A stretch of DNA of 43,834 bases, from positions 1 to 43,834 of the forward strand of contig JAJZAV010000003.1 of NCBI GenBank assembly GCA_021799255.1. Reading direction: 5' to 3'. Below the pieces are notes generated by a model. It was not told where the DNA came from, did no database searches, and saw only the letters and a program-made list of their open reading frames with translations. Each line of letters opens with the position of its first letter. The first letter of the stretch is position 1. This DNA comes from Bacillota bacterium (GTDB lineage: Bacteria > Bacillota > Bacilli > Alicyclobacillales > Alicyclobacillaceae). A program made the position numbers and the translations under genes. This document shows, one piece after another, positions 33,639-43,482 of the stretch.

Positions 33639-33874
33639 GCCATGTTCCCTTCACGGTTCATGTTTAACTCCGTACACTACTCTTCCACGACGGTCTCTAT
33701 CGCATACACCAGCCCCGGCCCGACGTCCCGAAGGATCACCGCTACCGACGAACGCTCTCCAATCGGTTAGCGGGCACAACGTCGCAGAGTGGGGCGTACC
33801 CGGGCTGCCCGCTTAGGCAAGTACCGAGTCAGTTTCGGAACTGCAAAAATACAATGTCGATAAACAAACGAGTG

Positions 33875-33947
33875 GGTGATGGAGCTCACCTGAATGTCCG
33901 TTAGGATAATGGCTCCTGCGATTCTCCAAGATCGCAGGAGCCATTAT
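33875..33947 (+). ncRNA. Fluoride riboswitch (crcB motif) #1 with overlapping terminator
   Basis: GGTGATGGAGCTCACC ... ATAATGGCTCCTGCG; GGAG/CTCC pseudoknot; 17-bp perfect terminator arms ATAATGGCTCCTGCGAT (33906-33922)/ATCGCAGGAGCCATTAT (33931-33947) then U-rich. Confidence 0.86.
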
Positions 33948-33974
33948 CTCTTTATTCAATCAAGAAAATTCGAG

Positions 33975-34003
33975 TTGACAATGGGCGATGACTTCTTTAC
34001 GAT
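33975..34003 (+). promoter_or_regulatory. Candidate sigma-A promoter between riboswitch #1 and #2
   Basis: TTGACA (33975-33980), 17-nt spacer, TACGAT (33998-34003). Confidence 0.5.
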
Positions 34004-34019
34004 GAGGGTAACTGAAATG

Positions 34020-34090
34020 GGCGATGGAGTTCGCCGGAACTGCTTTCGAGCTGATGACTCCTACCAGTGATGACTGGTGGGAGTTTTGTT
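34020..34090 (+). ncRNA. Fluoride riboswitch (crcB motif) #2 with overlapping terminator
   Basis: GGCGATGGAGTTCGCCGGAACTGCTTTCGAGCTGATGACTCCTACC; terminator arms ACTCCTACCAGT/ACTGGTGGGAGT then TTTTGTTTTT. Confidence 0.92.
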
Positions 34091-34111
34091 TTTATGCGAG
34101 AGTCCCCAACA

Positions 34112-34197
34112 GGCGATGGAGCTCGCCGACAACTGCCTTTTTTCCCAAGGCTGATGGCTCCTACCGATTCGGTCCAAGAATCGGTAGGAGCTTTTTT
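34112..34197 (+). ncRNA. Fluoride riboswitch (crcB motif) #3 with overlapping terminator
   Basis: GGCGATGGAGCTCGCCGACAACTGCC...GGCTGATGGCTCCTACC; terminator arms GCTCCTACCGATTC/GAATCGGTAGGAGC then TTTTTT. Confidence 0.95.
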
Positions 34198-34223: not shown

Positions 34224-35174
34224 ATGAGTGAAGCAAGATTGTTCTCTCTACAATTGCTTCAACTGGGCTTTGTTCTTGTGGTCTCCCCCCTCATTGCAGG
34301 CGTCCTCGCTCGGATGAAGGAGTTCGTTCAAGGCAAGGCAGGGCCAAGCATTTTTCAGCCCTACCGGGATCTTCGCAAGCTGTTCCAGAAAGAGCGGCTG
34401 ATTCCCGAGGGTTCTGGGCCCGTGTATCGCCTTGCTCCTTACCTGTATTTTTCAGCACCGCTCATCGTCACGCTGCTCATCCCGGTGCTCACGACGTTTC
34501 CCCTGTTTATGGCGTTTGCTGGAGACATGATGGCGGGCGGATTCATCCTTGGACTCGGAACGTACGTATTGCTCGCAGGGGCCATGGCAGGAGCTAGCCC
34601 GTACGGCGCCATCGGCAGCAGCCGCGTTCGATTTGTCTCCATGTCCGTCGAACCAGTACTCATTCTTGTCCTGTTTTGCGTGAGCTTCGTGGCGCACACC
34701 ACGATTCCGTACATCGTCAATCAAACCCTCTGGGGCCTTCGATGGTCCCCTATTCACCTGCTTTTGATTGCCTCGTTCTTCGCCATTCTATTGGCCGAGA
34801 CGGGACGCATCCCGGTAGATAATCCTTCGTCTCACCACGAATTTTCTATGATTGATCACAATCGTGTGTACGACTATTCCGGACCCGATTTAGCTCTACT
34901 CGAGTGGGGCGGGTGGATGAAGTACGTCGCCCTCGGGACCATCTTTTTGAACGTTATCGTTTCCCCCTACGGCTTGTCCCACAGCCCGGGCCTCATTTGG
35001 GTAGCCCTGGCCATCGTGGCGGTGTTCGTGAAGTTTGTACTGCTAGACGCCGCCATCGTTTGGGTGGAGTCGTCCTTCGGAAAACTGCGCCTGCTGCGGA
35101 TAGCAGAGTTTATGGCTTCGGCGGGCATGGCGGCCGGATTGGCCGTTCTCTTGGGAATTTTGCACGCTTGGTGA
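34224..35174 (+). CDS. Hyf/Hyc-type membrane subunit, NuoH-like (HyfC/HycD)
   Basis: GPSIFQPYRDLRKLFQKE, AETGRIPVDNPSSHHEFSMIDHNRVYDYSGPDLALLEWGGWMKY; AAGGAGG RBS. Confidence 0.92.
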   Translation: MSEARLFSLQLLQLGFVLVVSPLIAGVLARMKEFVQGKAGPSIFQPYRDLRKLFQKERLIPEGSGPVYRLAPYLYFSAPLIVTLLIPVLTTFPLFMAFAGDMMAGGFILGLGTYVLLAGAMAGASPYGAIGSSRVRFVSMSVEPVLILVLFCVSFVAHTTIPYIVNQTLWGLRWSPIHLLLIASFFAILLAETGRIPVDNPSSHHEFSMIDHNRVYDYSGPDLALLEWGGWMKYVALGTIFLNVIVSPYGLSHSPGLIWVALAIVAVFVKFVLLDAAIVWVESSFGKLRLLRIAEFMASAGMAAGLAVLLGILHAW

Positions 35175-35231
35175 AGGCTTTCGGCTAACGCCTTGCCACG
35201 TTCGAATTCGTCGAAGAGGGAGGAACTGTCC

Positions 35232-35867
35232 ATGTGGGCTGAATCGCCTACCGTCTATGTTCTCGTTTTGTTGCTTGGCATCTGGATTGCCATGTCGCGA
35301 GAAACCCGAATTGCGGTGAATGGCTATGTCCTTCAAACGGCGTTGGTAGCCCTTTTGTACGGACTCACCGCGTTCCAAACCAGGGACTCGATGGAATATG
35401 TGGTTCTATTCGGGCTTGTCGTGCTTCGCCTTGGCCTCATCCCATGGCTATTACGTCGTTTTCTTCGAGGCGAACTTTATACAGCCCGACAAACCCGCGA
35501 GGTCTTTTCCCCGGCGTACGCCTTAGCGTTGCATATCATCCTTGCCGTCGTCGGCATTGCAGTCGGACAGAGCGCGCAACCGGGAACGCTCGGACTGGAT
35601 TTCGGAATGACCATCGCGGTTCTCCTCGTCGGTTTGGCGACCGTGACCATCGCGCATCATGCTCCCAAGCAGGTCATGGGAATCTTGGCTGCGGATAACG
35701 GGATCGATCTCGCTGTCGTCCTCACCTTGCGCCGCTTCACCGCGGTCGCGGACTACGCCATCTTTGTCGACGTCACGGTGGCGGCGCTTTGTCTCACCCT
35801 GATGGTGCTTCGACTCTTCGCGTACGGTTCTCAGCACGCCCATCATTTCAACGACCTGAAGGGGTGA
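35232..35867 (+). CDS. Hyf-type membrane subunit, HyfE/NuoK-like
   Basis: About 211 aa polytopic protein, position and length as HyfE; ATG at 35232 after GAGGGAGGAA. Confidence 0.85.
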   Translation: MWAESPTVYVLVLLLGIWIAMSRETRIAVNGYVLQTALVALLYGLTAFQTRDSMEYVVLFGLVVLRLGLIPWLLRRFLRGELYTARQTREVFSPAYALALHIILAVVGIAVGQSAQPGTLGLDFGMTIAVLLVGLATVTIAHHAPKQVMGILAADNGIDLAVVLTLRRFTAVADYAIFVDVTVAALCLTLMVLRLFAYGSQHAHHFNDLKG

Positions 35868-35874
35868 TTGGTGC

Positions 35875-37314
35875 ATGTGGACTTATATTTTGCTTTGCAT
35901 TCCTCTCGTTGGAATCTTGGTCACTTGGCTGAGTTCTGCGTCCATCCGTCGGTGGGTGCCGGTTGTGACGACAGGGCTGAACCTCGTCGTTGCCGCATTT
36001 GACGGGTTCTTGCCCAAGAGTTCTGTCCCTTTCAGAGGCGTGTTCCCCCATCTCGACACGCTCTCGCTGGTGGTCACGGGCATTACCCTCGTGGTCGGTT
36101 TCACGGCCGCTCTGTATTCCGCAGGCTACGTGCCGAGGGACCACCCGTCCGTGCCTGGAACGCAACCTGCTTCCGAACGCAGATATTTCAGTCTGTTTTT
36201 GGCATTCTACCTGACCATGTTGGCCGCTCCACTCGTGGAAAACGTCGTCCTCACGTGGGTGATGGTGGACGCCACCGCACTCGCCTCGGTGTTTCTGGTG
36301 GACTTCCACCATACAAGGAAGACGGCGGAGGCCTCATGGAAATACATCATCATCATGGAAGTCGGAGGGCTGGCCGCCCTGTTTGGAACCGTCGTTCTCT
36401 TGCTCGGCGAACCCGCGGCCCTTCACGATTTGACGTGGACGGGTCTCACGCACGTCGCGTCCACCATTTCACCGAAATTGTCGTCCATCGCCTTCGTGCT
36501 CGTTCTCGTCGGATATGGCACCAAGGCGGGGCTCGTGCCTTTTAACTCGTGGTTGCCTGACGCACACAGCCAGGCACCCTCGCCAGTTAGCGCCATGCTG
36601 AGCGCCATCAAACTCAATACCGCGATGTATGCCATCGTGCGCGTATTGCACATTTTGCAAGCGGGTCACGAAGGAGCATTTGCCAACCACGCGCTTGCGG
36701 TGTTCGGGTTTCTCACAGTCATCGTGAGCACGTTGATGACGACCGTGCAGCGCGATGTGAAACGGTTGTTGGCGTATTCGAGTTCCGAGAACCTGGGCCT
36801 CATTGCCGTAGGGTTCTCACTTGGCCCCATCGGCGCTCTCGGAGCCTACTTGCAAATGGTGAACCACTCGGTGGTCAAGTCGATGCTTTTCTACCAGTCG
36901 GGCGAGCTTCTGCTGGCATCCGGAACCACGGAGATGGCCCAAATGCGGGGCATGATCCGCCGGATCCCCTGGCTCGGAGTCACGCTCTTGTTCGGAATGC
37001 TCGCCATTGCGGGTGCACCGCCCTTCGGGCTCTTCATCAGCGAGTTCACCATCATCTTCGCGTTGGTGCACGAAGCTTCTCCGTGGCTCGCGGCCCTCAT
37101 CACCCTGATGCTCGTTATCCTGTTTGCCAATTTTCTCACGTACGCCATGAGGATCAGCCTTGGCACGCCTTCCCATCCGCTCGCTACGGACGGCAGCAAC
37201 TATCGCCCGAGGTGGACGACGTGGGTGCCGATGTTCAGTCACACTGGGGTGTCATTGGCGCTTGGCACCGTTTTACCTTACCTGTTGGTTCTTTCCCGAT
37301 TTGTGCGAATCTGA
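35875..37314 (+). CDS. Proton-translocating antiporter-like subunit, HyfF/NuoN-M-like
   Basis: YGTKAGLVPFNSWLPDAHSQAPSPVSAMLSAIKLNTAMYAIVR, DVKRLLAYSSSENLGLIAVG. Confidence 0.93.
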   Translation: MWTYILLCIPLVGILVTWLSSASIRRWVPVVTTGLNLVVAAFDGFLPKSSVPFRGVFPHLDTLSLVVTGITLVVGFTAALYSAGYVPRDHPSVPGTQPASERRYFSLFLAFYLTMLAAPLVENVVLTWVMVDATALASVFLVDFHHTRKTAEASWKYIIIMEVGGLAALFGTVVLLLGEPAALHDLTWTGLTHVASTISPKLSSIAFVLVLVGYGTKAGLVPFNSWLPDAHSQAPSPVSAMLSAIKLNTAMYAIVRVLHILQAGHEGAFANHALAVFGFLTVIVSTLMTTVQRDVKRLLAYSSSENLGLIAVGFSLGPIGALGAYLQMVNHSVVKSMLFYQSGELLLASGTTEMAQMRGMIRRIPWLGVTLLFGMLAIAGAPPFGLFISEFTIIFALVHEASPWLAALITLMLVILFANFLTYAMRISLGTPSHPLATDGSNYRPRWTTWVPMFSHTGVSLALGTVLPYLLVLSRFVRI

Positions 37315-37332
37315 TGGAATGGGGGGTCTCCA

Positions 37333-38841
37333 TTGAAAGTACTGACCGCGCAAGGTTCGAATCTAAAACACGTCGAACGGCAACACCATCGCATCGGTGA
37401 TCTCGTGCACGCCGTGGTTCATTTCGCATCAGAAGAATCGGCGCAATTACTTTACTTCGGGTGGATCCCCAAAACGGGTGGATGGTCTAGACTCCTGGCC
37501 GTGATTGGTCGCCCGAAACACGCGCTGATTGAGTGGCACCACGCGGCCCCAACGTTCGGCCAAACAGCGTACCCCTCGCTCTCCGCGCGTTGGCCCGCGG
37601 CTTTGTGGTTAGAACGCGAAATGTGGGAGTTGACGAAGGTACTCCCGGTGGGCCATCCGGACCTGCGGGCCATTCTGCATCCCGAGAATCAAGAAGAGCG
37701 GATTGTGGTGCATGGAGACGAGGTTTTTCAATTGCCTCTAGGCCCTGTGCGATCCGATGTCGTCGAATCGATGTTCATGCGATTTGACACGCAGGGCGAG
37801 CAAATCGTGCACATGCAGCCTGAACTCTTTTACAAGCACCGGGACATCGAACGACTCGCGGTTGGACTCCTATATCCGGACGGGCGATTCCTGGCGGAGC
37901 GCGTTGCTGGGACTTCCACGATTGCCCACGCGACGGCCTACGCTCGCGCCATAGAGCATGCCTTAGGACATGTCGTTCACCCCAAGGTGGAGCAGGAACG
38001 CATCGTGTTTGGGGAATTGGAACGTCTCTACAATCATGCGCACGACATGGCCCAGATGGCGAGCGCCGCCGGAATGACCGTAGCGCAGGCGCAACTCTCC
38101 CGCGTTAAGGAGGAGTGCCTGCGCGTGAACGGCGATCTCTGCGGGTCTCGGTATCTGCGCAACGCAGTGCTTCCATACAAGGGGTCGGACGTCGAATGGG
38201 CGCAAGTCGTGTCCACCGTCATACGGAGGCTGCGAGACATTAATGGAAGGTTTACACAGTGCCTGGACCTGTTGCGAAGAACGCCGACGTTTGTGGACCG
38301 ATTCGTGGGGGCGGGCATCGTGAAGCAAGAATGGGCACGCGCCTACGGGACGGTAGGACCCGTTGCTCGCGCTTGTGGGCAGCCCGTCGACGTGCGGGAG
38401 GATTATTTGCGGGATCGGTACGAACAGCAGGCGTATCGTGTGGTTGTCGACGAAGCGGGCACCGGTGACGGGTGGGCCCGATTTGTCGTACGCGCGGGGG
38501 AATGGGAAATATCGCAGAGGGTTCTTACCAAGGGTCTCCAACTGCTCGCGAACGGGGACTTCATGGAGGCGGGCAGTTTGGCAGGAACTCAAGATGACTC
38601 CAAGAACGACGGTTTCTCGCTTGAACGCACCGGCATCGGTCTTTCTGAATCTCCGCGAGGTCGCGTGTGCCACGTGGTTCAATTGGATCCGGATGGACGG
38701 CTGGCCTTTTGGGGAATCCGGGCCGCGTCGGCGTGGAACTGGCCTGTGTTGGGCCTTGCGGTTGCGAACGGCAACATCCAACAGGATTTCCCGCCCATTG
38801 AGGCGAGCTTTGGATTGTCCTGCGCAGGCGTGGATAGGTAA
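37333..38841 (+). CDS. HyfG/HycE-like large subunit (NuoCD fusion) lacking most [NiFe] ligands
   Basis: FYKHRDIERLAVG...AERVAGTSTIAHATAYARAIEHALG aligns by eye with the HycE L1 region; C-terminus EASFGLSCAGVDR in place of DPCxxC. Confidence 0.85.
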   Translation: MKVLTAQGSNLKHVERQHHRIGDLVHAVVHFASEESAQLLYFGWIPKTGGWSRLLAVIGRPKHALIEWHHAAPTFGQTAYPSLSARWPAALWLEREMWELTKVLPVGHPDLRAILHPENQEERIVVHGDEVFQLPLGPVRSDVVESMFMRFDTQGEQIVHMQPELFYKHRDIERLAVGLLYPDGRFLAERVAGTSTIAHATAYARAIEHALGHVVHPKVEQERIVFGELERLYNHAHDMAQMASAAGMTVAQAQLSRVKEECLRVNGDLCGSRYLRNAVLPYKGSDVEWAQVVSTVIRRLRDINGRFTQCLDLLRRTPTFVDRFVGAGIVKQEWARAYGTVGPVARACGQPVDVREDYLRDRYEQQAYRVVVDEAGTGDGWARFVVRAGEWEISQRVLTKGLQLLANGDFMEAGSLAGTQDDSKNDGFSLERTGIGLSESPRGRVCHVVQLDPDGRLAFWGIRAASAWNWPVLGLAVANGNIQQDFPPIEASFGLSCAGVDR

Positions 38842-38853
38842 GGAGGGAAGGAC

Positions 38854-39252
38854 ATGTTCGCTAGCTGGCTGCGATTCGGGCTCACAAGTGGTCGCGTGAC
38901 GACGAGCTATCCAAAGAATAGGGAGGTTCTGCTGAGGGAGCACTCATCCTGGCATACGGTGCCGCGCCTCGACGCAACGGCAGCGCGCAAGCCGACGCCA
39001 ACCCTCCAAGATGTGAAAGCATGGGCGATGCGGTGTCCAACCTCGGCGCTGTTCGTATGGAGCGACGAGTCGGGATGGGGAATCTCTCTTGATGAGGGCG
39101 CGTGCATCGGCTGCAATCGCTGCGTGGTGCCGAACGTGCAGAGGGTGACGGAGTGGGGAGCAGACGTGGATCTCTTTGCCCTGGATAGGCTTGCACTCGT
39201 GGACAGCGTTCGGCTACAAGGAGGGGACTTTCGCGATGGACAACAAAAGTGA
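38854..39252 (+). CDS. Reduced HyfH/NuoI-like ferredoxin subunit
   Basis: MRCPTSAL...GACIGCNRCV; exactly four cysteines; position between large and small subunit genes. Confidence 0.75.
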   Translation: MFASWLRFGLTSGRVTTSYPKNREVLLREHSSWHTVPRLDATAARKPTPTLQDVKAWAMRCPTSALFVWSDESGWGISLDEGACIGCNRCVVPNVQRVTEWGADVDLFALDRLALVDSVRLQGGDFRDGQQK

Positions 39253-39718
39253 CTGGAACGAGTTGGACGCCGAGAAGCAGGCGGCTTCCCGGTTACGTAG
39301 AATCTTCGGAAAGTCCCTCCATGTGCGGCACATCGACGTGGGCTCCTGCAATGCATGTGAATCTGAGGTTTTGGCGTTGTCCAACCCGTACTACAACTTT
39401 CACCGCCTTGGCCTGTTCTTTACGGCTTCGCCTCGGCAGGCGGATGTGTTGCTTGTGACGGGGGCGATGACGCCCACCATGAAACCCATCCTTATGGAAA
39501 CGTACGAGGCGATGCCCAAGCCCCGATTGGTCGTTGCCGCGGGGGTATGCGCCATCCACGGAGGGGTGTTTGCCAACAGCCGGCAATTCGCCGGCCCCGT
39601 GGAATCCGTAATTCCAGTCGACGCGTTCATCCCAGGGTGCCCTCCGACTCCGTACGCGTTGATAAACGGTATCCTTGCGGCCGTAAATGGGCGCGAAGGA
39701 GTGACGCGAGATGCGTGA
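39236..39718 (+). CDS. HyfI/HycG/NuoB-like small subunit
   Basis: DVGSCNACESEVLAL, VVAAGVCAIHGGVF, FIPGCPPTPYALING; ATG at 39236 with AAGGAGGGG RBS. Confidence 0.93.
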   Translation: MDNKSDWNELDAEKQAASRLRRIFGKSLHVRHIDVGSCNACESEVLALSNPYYNFHRLGLFFTASPRQADVLLVTGAMTPTMKPILMETYEAMPKPRLVVAAGVCAIHGGVFANSRQFAGPVESVIPVDAFIPGCPPTPYALINGILAAVNGREGVTRDA

Positions 39719-41816
39719 CTTTTATTGGATCTCGGTTGCCTGGTTCTTGATCCCGCTCGCTTTGTTTCCGTGGTTCCGCCGAGAACGGGCCCTTCGGCCC
39801 CTTCGCTGGGCGGCTCTCGCCATCGGATCTCTTCTTCAAACGGCGCTGGGAATATGGGCACTTTCAGATTCCTCCCGCCTCGTTGTCGCCAAGTTCCCCA
39901 GCGTCCCGTTCTTCGGAACTTGGCTGTTTCGGATGGATCCTTTGACGTCGCTCTTGTTTGCTCTGCTCGGACTTATCGGCCTCGCGTCTAGCATTTATGC
40001 GATTGGATTGAGTCGGAACCGAGCGCTCGGCACCGGATGGATGAGCGCAAGTGCCGTGGCGCTGCAGTTCATGTTCACCAGTTTCTTGCTCACTTCGCAA
40101 GACGCCGTTGCACTCTTAGTGGCGTGGGAAGGCATGAGCCTTTGTGCCTACGCCTTTGTGGCAATCAATCACGGGTTGATACGCGTGAGGCGGGCCGCGT
40201 TCACGACGCTCGTGGCGAGTGAGATTGGCTTTCTGGCACTCGTGATTGCCGTCGTCATGGCGGCACCGGTGAGCGGAGGATTCACGTTTGCACAGCTCCA
40301 CGCCTCGCTCGTCCATCATCCCGAATCGTTGCGCTGTGTCGTGCTAGTGCTGGGCCTCGTCGGCTTCGGGGTGAAAAGCGGCATTTTGCCGATGCAGATG
40401 TGGATGCCCGGAGCGTACGACGCGGCGCCAGCTCACATGAGTGCCATTCTCGCGGGTGGGCTTCTCAACCTAGGGATATTCGGTATCCTCCGGACCCTCG
40501 AATGGGTCGGCGCACTTCCTTCACCCTGGGGCGTTGCGCTGGTGTGTGTGGGGGCGTTGGCCGTGTTTTTGGGGTCGCTGTACGCGGTGATGGAGCGACG
40601 GCTTGGCCGGTTGCTCGCTTACAGCAGCATCGAGAACGTTGGGTTTATGATCATCGGCATAGGCCTATCCATCGCCTTTCGTGCCACTGGGGCGGCAGCT
40701 TTTGCCTCGGTGGCGCTCATGGCCATGTTGGCGCAAATGATCTCCCACGCACTGGCCAAGGCGCTTTGCTTCTTGGCAACGGGTGAGGTTGAACGCCGCA
40801 CAAAGAAGGCGGATCTCTCCGCTTTGGGAGGGTTGTACCGAGACATGCCCGTGGCCGCGATCACGCTGTTGGTGGGTTCCTTAACCTTGGCCGCGGTTGC
40901 CCCGTTCAGTGGATTTACGGCCGAATGGTTGACCCTTCAGTCCATGCTGCAGGTCTACCGCACCCTGACGCCCGTTGAGCAGATGGTCGTGATTGGCGCG
41001 GGCGCTCTGACGGCCATCGGATCTGCGCTAGCTTTCACCGCCTTCCTTCGATTGTTCGTGTTTCTATTCACGGGGAAGCCCCGCAGGGCAGCGGTGACAT
41101 TGCGGGTGCGCCAGAATACGAGCGGCAAGCTCACAAACCTCGCCATCATAGGCCTGGGAAGTGTGTCCGCGCTGTACGGATTTGTGCCGACCGCCGTCTT
41201 CAACTGGATTGGCAAGGTCGTTGCGGAGATAGTGCCATCGACAAATGCAATTTCACAAACCAACCCGGATGTGTTTGGCCGTCCCGCGGCATTTTCGTCG
41301 ACGGTCGCCCTGGGAGGGGACCTGTTTTCTTTTGCGCCCGTGCGCAGTTTCATCGTTCAACCCGCCGCAGGAGTGAGCAGCATCGCTCCGACATACCTCA
41401 TGGGGTGGTTTCTCCTGTTCTCAGTTCTCGCCTTCGGACTGAGCAAGGGACTTCGGCGCAGCCGTTTCGGGTCTCGAACCGTCCCCTCGTGGGTGGGCGG
41501 GCGCTCCCTGGATGTTTCGGAGACCCAGTACAATGCACCTGGATACTCGAATGTTTACCGAATGTTTTTCCGTTCATTGCTCCGCTTTCGCGTCAGCACC
41601 GCGGTGATGGAAGGGGCGCCCGATGTGCCCACGGAGGTGTCTGTAAACGTGCGAGCAACCAAATGGCTGTACAGCGCAATTTACCGCAGCTGGGTCAAGA
41701 GGGTGCGCAAGCGCCTGGACGGGGTTCGGCACATCCAACACGGGTTGCTGTGGGGGTATTTGTCCGCCATGGTCCTCACGCTCGTCCTTTTACTGCTCTT
41801 TGCGACGTGGAAATGA
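39711..41816 (+). CDS. Antiporter-like membrane subunit, HyfB/HycC/NuoL-like
   Basis: LVAWEGMSLCAYAFVA, GFGVKSGILPMQMWMPGAYDAAPAHMSAILAGGLLNLGI, RRLGRLLAYSSIENVGFMIIGIG. Confidence 0.94.
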   Translation: MRDFYWISVAWFLIPLALFPWFRRERALRPLRWAALAIGSLLQTALGIWALSDSSRLVVAKFPSVPFFGTWLFRMDPLTSLLFALLGLIGLASSIYAIGLSRNRALGTGWMSASAVALQFMFTSFLLTSQDAVALLVAWEGMSLCAYAFVAINHGLIRVRRAAFTTLVASEIGFLALVIAVVMAAPVSGGFTFAQLHASLVHHPESLRCVVLVLGLVGFGVKSGILPMQMWMPGAYDAAPAHMSAILAGGLLNLGIFGILRTLEWVGALPSPWGVALVCVGALAVFLGSLYAVMERRLGRLLAYSSIENVGFMIIGIGLSIAFRATGAAAFASVALMAMLAQMISHALAKALCFLATGEVERRTKKADLSALGGLYRDMPVAAITLLVGSLTLAAVAPFSGFTAEWLTLQSMLQVYRTLTPVEQMVVIGAGALTAIGSALAFTAFLRLFVFLFTGKPRRAAVTLRVRQNTSGKLTNLAIIGLGSVSALYGFVPTAVFNWIGKVVAEIVPSTNAISQTNPDVFGRPAAFSSTVALGGDLFSFAPVRSFIVQPAAGVSSIAPTYLMGWFLLFSVLAFGLSKGLRRSRFGSRTVPSWVGGRSLDVSETQYNAPGYSNVYRMFFRSLLRFRVSTAVMEGAPDVPTEVSVNVRATKWLYSAIYRSWVKRVRKRLDGVRHIQHGLLWGYLSAMVLTLVLLLLFATWK

Positions 41817-41870: not shown

Positions 41871-42269
41871 TCATTGTCCCAGTTCTTCGTTCGTATTCCA
41901 AATCCGGCCGCTGACGGTGGACACAAGGAGATCCCCCACGTACGCGAGGACGGGTCCCCCAATCATACTCGCTGCTATGTATAAATAGCTCGCCAACGGA
42001 CTATGCCGAAATAACGTGTCGGTGTTGAGGCAGAATGTCGAGAACGTCGTGTAGGCCCCAATAAGGCCGACCCCAAAGCCTACACGAAGCCAGTCAGGAA
42101 TGTCGCGGAAGGCAGCAATCCCATAGAACACTCCGAGGACGAAAGATCCGCTTAAATTGATCAGCAACGTAGCGTTTGGGAACGCTCCATCGGCTGGGAT
42201 GATATGCGCTAGTAAATATCGGAGAAAGCCGCCGATGGCCCCCCCAATGAGAAGCGCAACGTATTTCAT
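41871..42269 (-). CDS. crcB: Fluoride exporter CrcB/FluC
   Basis: MKYVALLIGGAIGGFLRYLLAHI, FPNATLLINLSGSFVLGVFYG, RVGFGVGLIGAYTTFSTFCLNT; start at 42269 with AAGGAAGGA RBS (ORF track start is further upstream). Confidence 0.95.
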   Translation of the reverse strand: MKYVALLIGGAIGGFLRYLLAHIIPADGAFPNATLLINLSGSFVLGVFYGIAAFRDIPDWLRVGFGVGLIGAYTTFSTFCLNTDTLFRHSPLASYLYIAASMIGGPVLAYVGDLLVSTVSGRIWNTNEELGQ

Positions 42270-42356
42270 TCTGATTCCTTCCTTCTGTCCGCCACGTGGC
42301 ACGTGGCGTGTGGCATGGGGTGGGTGCGATGTGCCATCGCTAGAAAAACAATAAAA

Positions 42357-42433
42357 CTCCTGTGACAATGACTAGATACGTCTCTCACAGGAGCCATCAA
42401 CCTCTTAGGTGGTTATCGGTGAGATCCATCACC
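42357..42433 (-). ncRNA. Fluoride riboswitch (crcB motif) #4 with terminator, upstream of crcB
   Basis: Minus strand GGTGATGGATCTCACCGATAACCACCTAAGAGGTTGATGGCTCCTGTGA; terminator arms CTCCTGTGA/TCACAGGAG then TTTTATTG. Confidence 0.92.
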
Positions 42434-42452
42434 CGTGTTTCTCAATGTGGGC

Positions 42453-42585: not shown

Positions 42586-43482
42586 CTAAAACCACTTCTT
42601 CTTCTTGAAGTACCACCAAAACCCTGCGACCGAGAGGATGGACAGAATCCACACCAACGGGTATCCGTATCGCCAGTGATAGGCGGGGACGGCGACGTTC
42701 ACCCCATACCAGCCGACGATGAATGAGAGAGGCATGAAGAAGGTACTAACGATGGTGAGGGTCTTCATAATTGAGTTCATCCCATCGCTTTTCAGCGCCA
42801 TTTGTAGGTCTAACAGGCCGCCGAGGGCGTCCCGAAAGCTGTCGAGGGCGTCGAGATGCGATTAATGTGATCGAATAAATCCATGAAATAAGCGTTGTCC
42901 GCCTCAGTGGTATACGGGAACGTCGAGTGCATCAACGACTCCATCACGTCGATTTTGTCTTCCAGAAAATCGATGAAGTCGAGGTAGTGGTGAACCGAGA
43001 AATCCAAAAACTCGTACAGGATGCGTCCGTGAGACTGCATCATGAGCGGGGTTTCCTTGAATTGGTGATGAAGGTCTTCGAGAAAGGGCATGGGTTCGGG
43101 CACCACGGCGATGACAAAGTTATGGCCCATCACCATAGACACCTCTATCAGGCTCCAGTCATCCTTGAGAAAGAAACGGGCAGTAGACGTGGTCCGAGTA
43201 CCTATCGATTTGAGTTCCGGTGCCAAAGCGCAGGCAGTCCTCAACGACCAGGGGGTGACAGTTGAAGATGTCTCCCACGACCTGTCGGACATCGGATGGT
43301 TCCGGATGGTACAGGTCAACAAACACGGTTTCATTTTGTGCGGCTTCTCGCACGGACTCCTGCCGGACCTCGTGACCGTCGCACACGAGCATAGAAAAGA
43401 CTCCCTTCGCTTCAGCATGCGTCTTCGCGCAGGCCTTCATATCTGCTTCGCTGGAAGCAGAGGCTATGCCGGGAAATGACAC
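42586..43482 (-). pseudogene. CorA-like Mg2+/divalent cation transporter, interrupted by two apparent frameshifts
   Basis: N-terminal part 43482-43159, middle 42810-43170 region, C-terminal FFMPLSFIVGWYGVNV plus last TM in 42801-42586; three different frames on one strand. Confidence 0.75.

Follow-up and report, generated by a model that had tools for sequence, protein, structure and literature searches.

Complexes built of HyfBCEFGI-type subunits, with a large subunit devoid of NiFe motifs, are known as energy-converting hydrogenase-related (Ehr) complexes. They are found, e.g., in Sulfobacillus, and their function is given as unknown (PMC4378227, citing Marreiros 2013). The crcB motif has been known since 2010 to occur 5′ of “formate hydrogen lyase” genes (Weinberg 2010, PMC2864571), and in a 2024 review the riboswitch-linked “formate hydrogen lyase” is read as anaerobic formate metabolism (PMC11139923). 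A search of open-access literature gave no source that connects fluoride control to the absence of NiFe ligands; an earlier mention elsewhere is possible.

The window, i.e., the whole 43,834 nt stretch analyzed here, carries a seven-gene operon, hyfC-E-F-G-H-I-B, at 34224-41816. The encoded complex displays the features of Ehr complexes: complex I-/Hyf-like subunits of the HyfBCEFGI type, a large subunit without NiFe motifs, and a place in the cysteine-less clade. It differs from them in its C-E-F-G-H-I-B gene order, a ferredoxin subunit with one cluster and fluoride riboswitch control, and it belongs to a clade separate from the B-C-E-F-G-I type. E. coli formate hydrogenlyase-1 (HycE, 7z0s) and hydrogenase-4 (HyfG) have the same fold and subunit plan, but the window complex is without their NiFe ligands, maturation tail and HycB/formate dehydrogenase, and one ferredoxin cluster is lost. 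Respiratory complex I (NuoCD/49 kDa) likewise shares the fold, the NuoB-type N2 subunit and the NuoL/H-like membrane subunits, whereas the window complex has changed quinone Tyr/His positions and no NADH module.

The HycE/HyfG-like large subunit (37333-38841, + strand) is a 502 aa protein with 30 kDa and 49 kDa domains, and its best match among solved structures is HycE (7z0s_E, E 3e-38). It was aligned with HycE, HyfG and NuoCD of E. coli K-12 and with 35 proteins of this and related genomes. The HycE motifs RVCGIC...DPCYSCTDR pair without gaps with RVAGTS...GLSCAGVDR, and the four ligand cysteines of HycE correspond, in order, to Ala192 (37906-37908), Ser195 (37915-37917), Ser496 (38818-38820) and Gly499 (38827-38829). 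The lone remaining cysteine, Cys497, pairs with the Tyr of the HycE C-Y-S-C, where most orthologs also have Tyr; as this is no ligand position, all four ligands are gone. An earlier note on this DNA had counted three of the four metal-binding cysteines as absent; the loss stands, but the count is four of four. Of the two motifs it had cited, RVAGTSTIAHA is in this ORF at 37900-37932 as given, and SFGLSC is present at 38806-38823, one base above the 38805-38822 assigned to it.

The 12 closest orthologs, with 46-55% identity, have intact frames and show Ser, then Ser, Ala or Thr, then an invariant Ser and an invariant Gly at the ligand positions. Thus the ligand loss is not a sequencing error or the property of a lone decayed gene, and the intact frames and conserved orthologs rule out a frameshift or pseudogene as well. 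Substitute cysteines at the four ligand positions were searched for in the alignments with HycE and the orthologs, and none are present. The protein stops at Arg502, in the DR that follows the motif; Arg502 pairs with HycE residue 537, the end of mature HycE. The large subunit is therefore without a C-terminal tail for a maturation protease. With ligand positions that read A, S, S and G, the alignments support the earlier proposal that a standard NiFe cofactor could not be bound.

Comparison with HycE and inspection of the cavity in an AlphaFold model had also been proposed. The model was built from 60 sequences, without rows from the plasmid collection, in place of a 13-sequence model that was poor around the cavity; its mean pLDDT is 91.7 and its pTM 0.93. 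It matches HycE (7z0s_E) with Z 46.9 and rmsd 2.2 over 474 residues, and the complex I 49 kDa subunits with Z of about 41 to 44. In the predicted structure the catalytic fold is intact and the metal site is empty. A resemblance to NuoD, which the earlier note had put beside that to Ehr complexes, does not extend to the active site. In the 49 kDa subunit of complex I a Tyr and a His hold the quinone head group, and in the alignment these positions are Gly193 and Val144. The likeness to Ehr complexes is borne out, as alignment and trees place the large subunit in the cysteine-less, Ehr-like part of the group-4 family.

Maturation genes, for which a search of the genome had been suggested, are present, but not for this protein. 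Contig C201 has hypF, hypB, hypE, hypD and a maturation protease next to a genuine four-cysteine hydrogenase (RICGIC...DPCISC). Since this hydrogenase accounts for the hyp genes, they are uninformative on the window protein and were rejected as support for a NiFe site in it. A formate dehydrogenase alpha gene is found on another contig of the genome, and the operon itself contains no formate dehydrogenase or HycB-type gene. That the complex is a true hydrogenase or formate hydrogenlyase whose site is atypical could be argued from the overall similarity to HycE and from the hyp and formate dehydrogenase genes elsewhere. It is extremely improbable in view of the absence of ligand cysteines, maturation tail and in-operon formate dehydrogenase/HycB, and of hyp genes that go with another hydrogenase. 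Formate hydrogenlyase activity, which the earlier note had argued against, is thus very unlikely for a protein of the cysteine-less part of the group-4 family that has lost its ligands. The genome also has a second Ehr-type operon, on its own contig (C175; L005 6232-11613), whose large subunit reads C, D, C, C at the ligand positions, i.e., three of four cysteines; the Asp is common to its relatives in neighboring genomes.

Just upstream of hyfC are three tandem fluoride riboswitch aptamers (RF01734, for which the Rfam gathering score is 34 bits), each overlapping its own intrinsic terminator, all on the + strand: aptamer 1 at 33866-33925 (36.6 bits; terminator 33904-33949, from a terminator scan), aptamer 2 at 34011-34070 (56.9 bits; terminator 34056-34085) and aptamer 3 at 34103-34170 (56.8 bits; terminator 34156-34192). 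A promoter-like site lies between aptamers 1 and 2, just upstream of the latter (33975-34003). A fourth aptamer (42381-42442, - strand, 45.9 bits) belongs to a gene for the Fluc fluoride channel CrcB (41871-42368, - strand; PF02537, E 2e-22), which is convergent with the operon. Elsewhere in the genome, aptamers are found in front of a CPA2 cation/proton antiporter and of a second crcB. Judged from its sequence, the overlap of aptamer and terminator is the layout of an ON switch. Fluoride control of the operon is strongly supported by these predicted elements, and they suggest that fluoride would induce it. The riboswitches and crcB around the operon likely alter the function to be expected of the complex, beyond what the earlier note had read.

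Within 33866-34192 there is thus a series of three fluoride riboswitches, each complete with aptamer and terminator, and Alicyclobacillus mengziensis (L039) has two; such serial riboswitches may sharpen the response. Beside crcB, a CorA-like Mg2+ transporter gene (42810-43482, - strand) appears to be split in two frames, with ORFs of 202 aa and 107 aa; the cause would be a frameshift or else an error in the sequence.

Relatives of the operon were collected from whole genomes, genome contigs and plasmids; the contigs were searched with an alignment, as a single-protein query gave no match. Two main gene orders are found, the widespread B-C-E-F-G-I and the C-E-F-G-(H)-I-B order of the window. 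A fluoride aptamer supported by a model is present upstream in 19 of the 22 C-first operons with upstream sequence. Because the loci are related to one another and sampled unevenly, and some stop short of the operon start, no significance value is attached to the association. In 16 of the 22 an aptamer above the Rfam gathering score lies upstream of hyfC, and three more (L042, L159 and L202) were matched by the covariance model R2, which had been built without them. For the other three (L041, L043 and L044), the right place and strand hold no more than degenerate candidates. In Mycobacterium branderi a NUDIX gene is positioned between aptamer and hyfC. An initial model of the riboswitch, R1, favored Alicyclobacillaceae and gave low scores for Burkholderia aptamers, and the broader R2 was used to rescan the control loci. 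The same R2 scan covered 1.3 Mb; at E up to 0.1 it matched neither the hyc, hyf and nuo loci of E. coli nor any of 80 loci with another gene order. In addition, 398 Bacillota genomes were searched with RF01734; among the matches listed there is one coincidence with a hyf locus beyond that of the window (G506, contig 72), a C-first operon with T, S, A, S at the ligand positions.

An IQ-TREE phylogeny was computed for 49 large subunits. In it a branch with SH-aLRT 99 separates the proteins of fluoride-type operons from the rest, and the cysteine-less large subunits as a whole have SH-aLRT 96; FastTree agrees. L153 and L159 sit on long branches, with an uncertain inner position. The fluoride clade spans five phyla: Bacillota, Pseudomonadota (Burkholderia, Caballeronia), Actinomycetota (Mycobacterium branderi), Acidobacteriota and Nitrospirota. 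None of the clade members examined has an intact four-cysteine set, and the sole cysteine left at a ligand position in these is that of M. branderi (E, A, C, G). The riboswitch-linked “formate hydrogen lyase” genes of the literature are very probably the same gene family as the window operon. They are treated there as formate hydrogenlyase (PMC2864571, PMC11139923), whereas all such members examined here are without the hydrogenase site. With its catalytic ligands gone and one ferredoxin cluster lost, the complex might be taken for a functionless relic in decay, but frames that are intact, high conservation across genera, triple riboswitch control and a spread over five phyla make this very improbable.

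Neighboring genes are fluoride-stress genes, namely crcB, DUF190, pyrophosphatase, enolase and MutS-like genes. A plasmid of Alicyclobacillus sp. ALC3 (NZ_CP066785.1, 18001-37900; L048) has several RF01734 aptamers together with DUF190 and CrcB genes in a fluoride island; a solitary large-subunit gene stands there behind its own aptamer, with the rest of the operon absent. In Burkholderia, a “hypothetical” protein gene 3′ of the operon has its own fluoride aptamer (L152 12208-13536, L160 12310-13608); the L152 copy is without a Pfam match, and the gene is possibly an undescribed fluoride-stress gene. The tight fluoride control and these neighbors could also mean that the complex itself exports fluoride, e.g., as an F-/H+ antiporter. 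This is improbable with a dedicated Fluc channel gene next door, and we know of no F- path in the complex I/group-4 hydrogenase superfamily.

The genes of the membrane arm, all on the + strand, encode a HyfC/NuoH-like subunit (34224-35174; PF00146, E 2e-32), with charged residues kept; a HyfE-like subunit (35193-35867, possible ATG start at 35232; NCBIfam hydrogenase 4 membrane subunit E, 6e-7); and two antiporter-type subunits, HyfF-like (35875-37314; PF00361, E 9e-50, and HyfF models), with channel residues kept, and HyfB-like (39711-41816; PF00361, E 3e-43, and HyfB model, E 1e-109). HyfF and HyfC retain the channel Glu/Lys residues, and HyfB retains most of them, with Gly299 in the window at the middle channel Lys; such residues alone are no proof of transport. 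HyfC shows 69-77% identity among close orthologs. In A. mengziensis (L039 5199-9155) a transposase gene splits hyfB in two pieces.

The HyfI/NuoB-like small subunit (39176-39718, + strand, probable ATG start at 39236; PF01058, E 6e-30) has all four N2 cysteines. The HyfH-like ferredoxin subunit (38854-39252, + strand), recognized from its sequence, weak Fer4 matches and orthologs, has the ligands of one [4Fe-4S] cluster only (RCP + CIGCNRC), the other four-ligand set being lost. From motif order and the established numbering, the retained cluster is presumably the one that adjoins N2, i.e., N6b in complex I; the inner end of the electron wire would therefore remain. The operon has no genes of an NADH-oxidizing module. 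Among the clade loci tabulated, 21 of 22 small subunits keep the N2 cysteines. The exception is the plasmid version of M. branderi (L153 9327-10121), in which all four are missing (N, D, D, A). Three Bacillota members of the clade have no ferredoxin subunit in the operon. Outside the clade, two Ehr-type small subunits are seemingly without N2 cysteines as well, one from an Allomeiothermus silvanus plasmid (L155 9260-10141) and one from a Micrarchaeota MAG (L110 5911-6465).

Two versions of ion transport can be set against these observations. In one, the complex may pump H+ by reducing quinone or some other small acceptor with electrons from ferredoxin or flavodoxin, as is supposed for Ehr complexes, with fluoride setting only the timing. 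The N2 cysteines of 21 of the 22 loci and the N2-adjoining cluster that the ferredoxin appears to keep speak for such a redox-driven pump; Gly193 and Val144 at the quinone positions, the missing N2 ligands of M. branderi and the three operons without a ferredoxin gene speak against it, and we regard it as a tentative possibility, short of even odds. Alternatively, no redox chemistry may be involved: the complex would be a cation/proton antiporter or a route for protons, in which the hydrogenase-derived arm is a scaffold or gate. The Mrp and DAB2 systems would be comparable in principle, as proton movement without redox chemistry; this is an analogy only, as these have no HycE/NuoB arm, unlike the window complex. 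Such a use of NuoL-type subunits has a precedent in DAB2 (PMC13144422), and the wire is eroded in some members while the membrane subunits are conserved. However nearly all members keep N2, which is unexpected if electrons never passed, and this second version is rather doubtful. A more specific form of it, a complex-I-type machine turned into a dedicated ion transporter for fluoride defense (H+/cation or F-/H+ coupled), with the large subunit repurposed as gate or sensor, is unlikely; the M. branderi version, without NiFe and N2 ligands, would be the extreme form of a redox-free transporter. Comparison across the clade favors ion movement as the function its members share; most of them probably still pass electrons, and a few would be unable to do so in the usual way.

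Because the metal site is gone and the genes lie behind three fluoride riboswitches, the complex is most likely an ion pump that aids fluoride survival. We give a probability of roughly 0.6 to the reading that it is a fluoride-induced, complex-I-type ion (H+) translocator that supports pH and proton-motive force, hence F- efflux, and is not a hydrogenase. Gly299 of HyfB and the three C-first operons with degenerate aptamer candidates count against it, and fluoride control could instead serve a redox task unrelated to pH. Both the ion transport and its benefit under fluoride are suggested by the genes and their setting. Entry of HF brings H+ and F- into the cell, export by Fluc needs membrane potential, and among the gene classes linked to fluoride riboswitches cation/proton antiporters rank second in frequency (PMC11139923). 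Acidophiles are notably fluoride-sensitive, which is ascribed to their inside-positive potential (PMC12831704). A complex that moves protons and is induced by fluoride would suit such a need.

In the proposed translocator, fluoride that enters the cell would bind the leader aptamers and prevent transcription termination, so that the operon is made. The membrane arm (HyfC, E, F and B) would then move H+, possibly against Na+ or K+, and sustain the pH of the cytoplasm and the proton-motive force as protons come in with HF; this in turn would let CrcB, also under fluoride control, expel F-. The large subunit may act as an emptied catalytic subunit, with electrons from the one-cluster ferredoxin passing via N2 to a non-proton acceptor, or it may be a structural or gating unit without redox chemistry.

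Loss of the ligands is known already for Ehr complexes, and what is added here is the link to fluoride. If riboswitch-associated complexes generally lack the hydrogenase site, their reading as formate metabolism would be wrong, and a component of fluoride resistance would have been hidden by annotation. The translocator proposed here, if real, would give Ehr-like complexes a first testable physiological role, and it would offer a natural experiment as to which components of the complex I machinery are still required after loss of the catalytic site.
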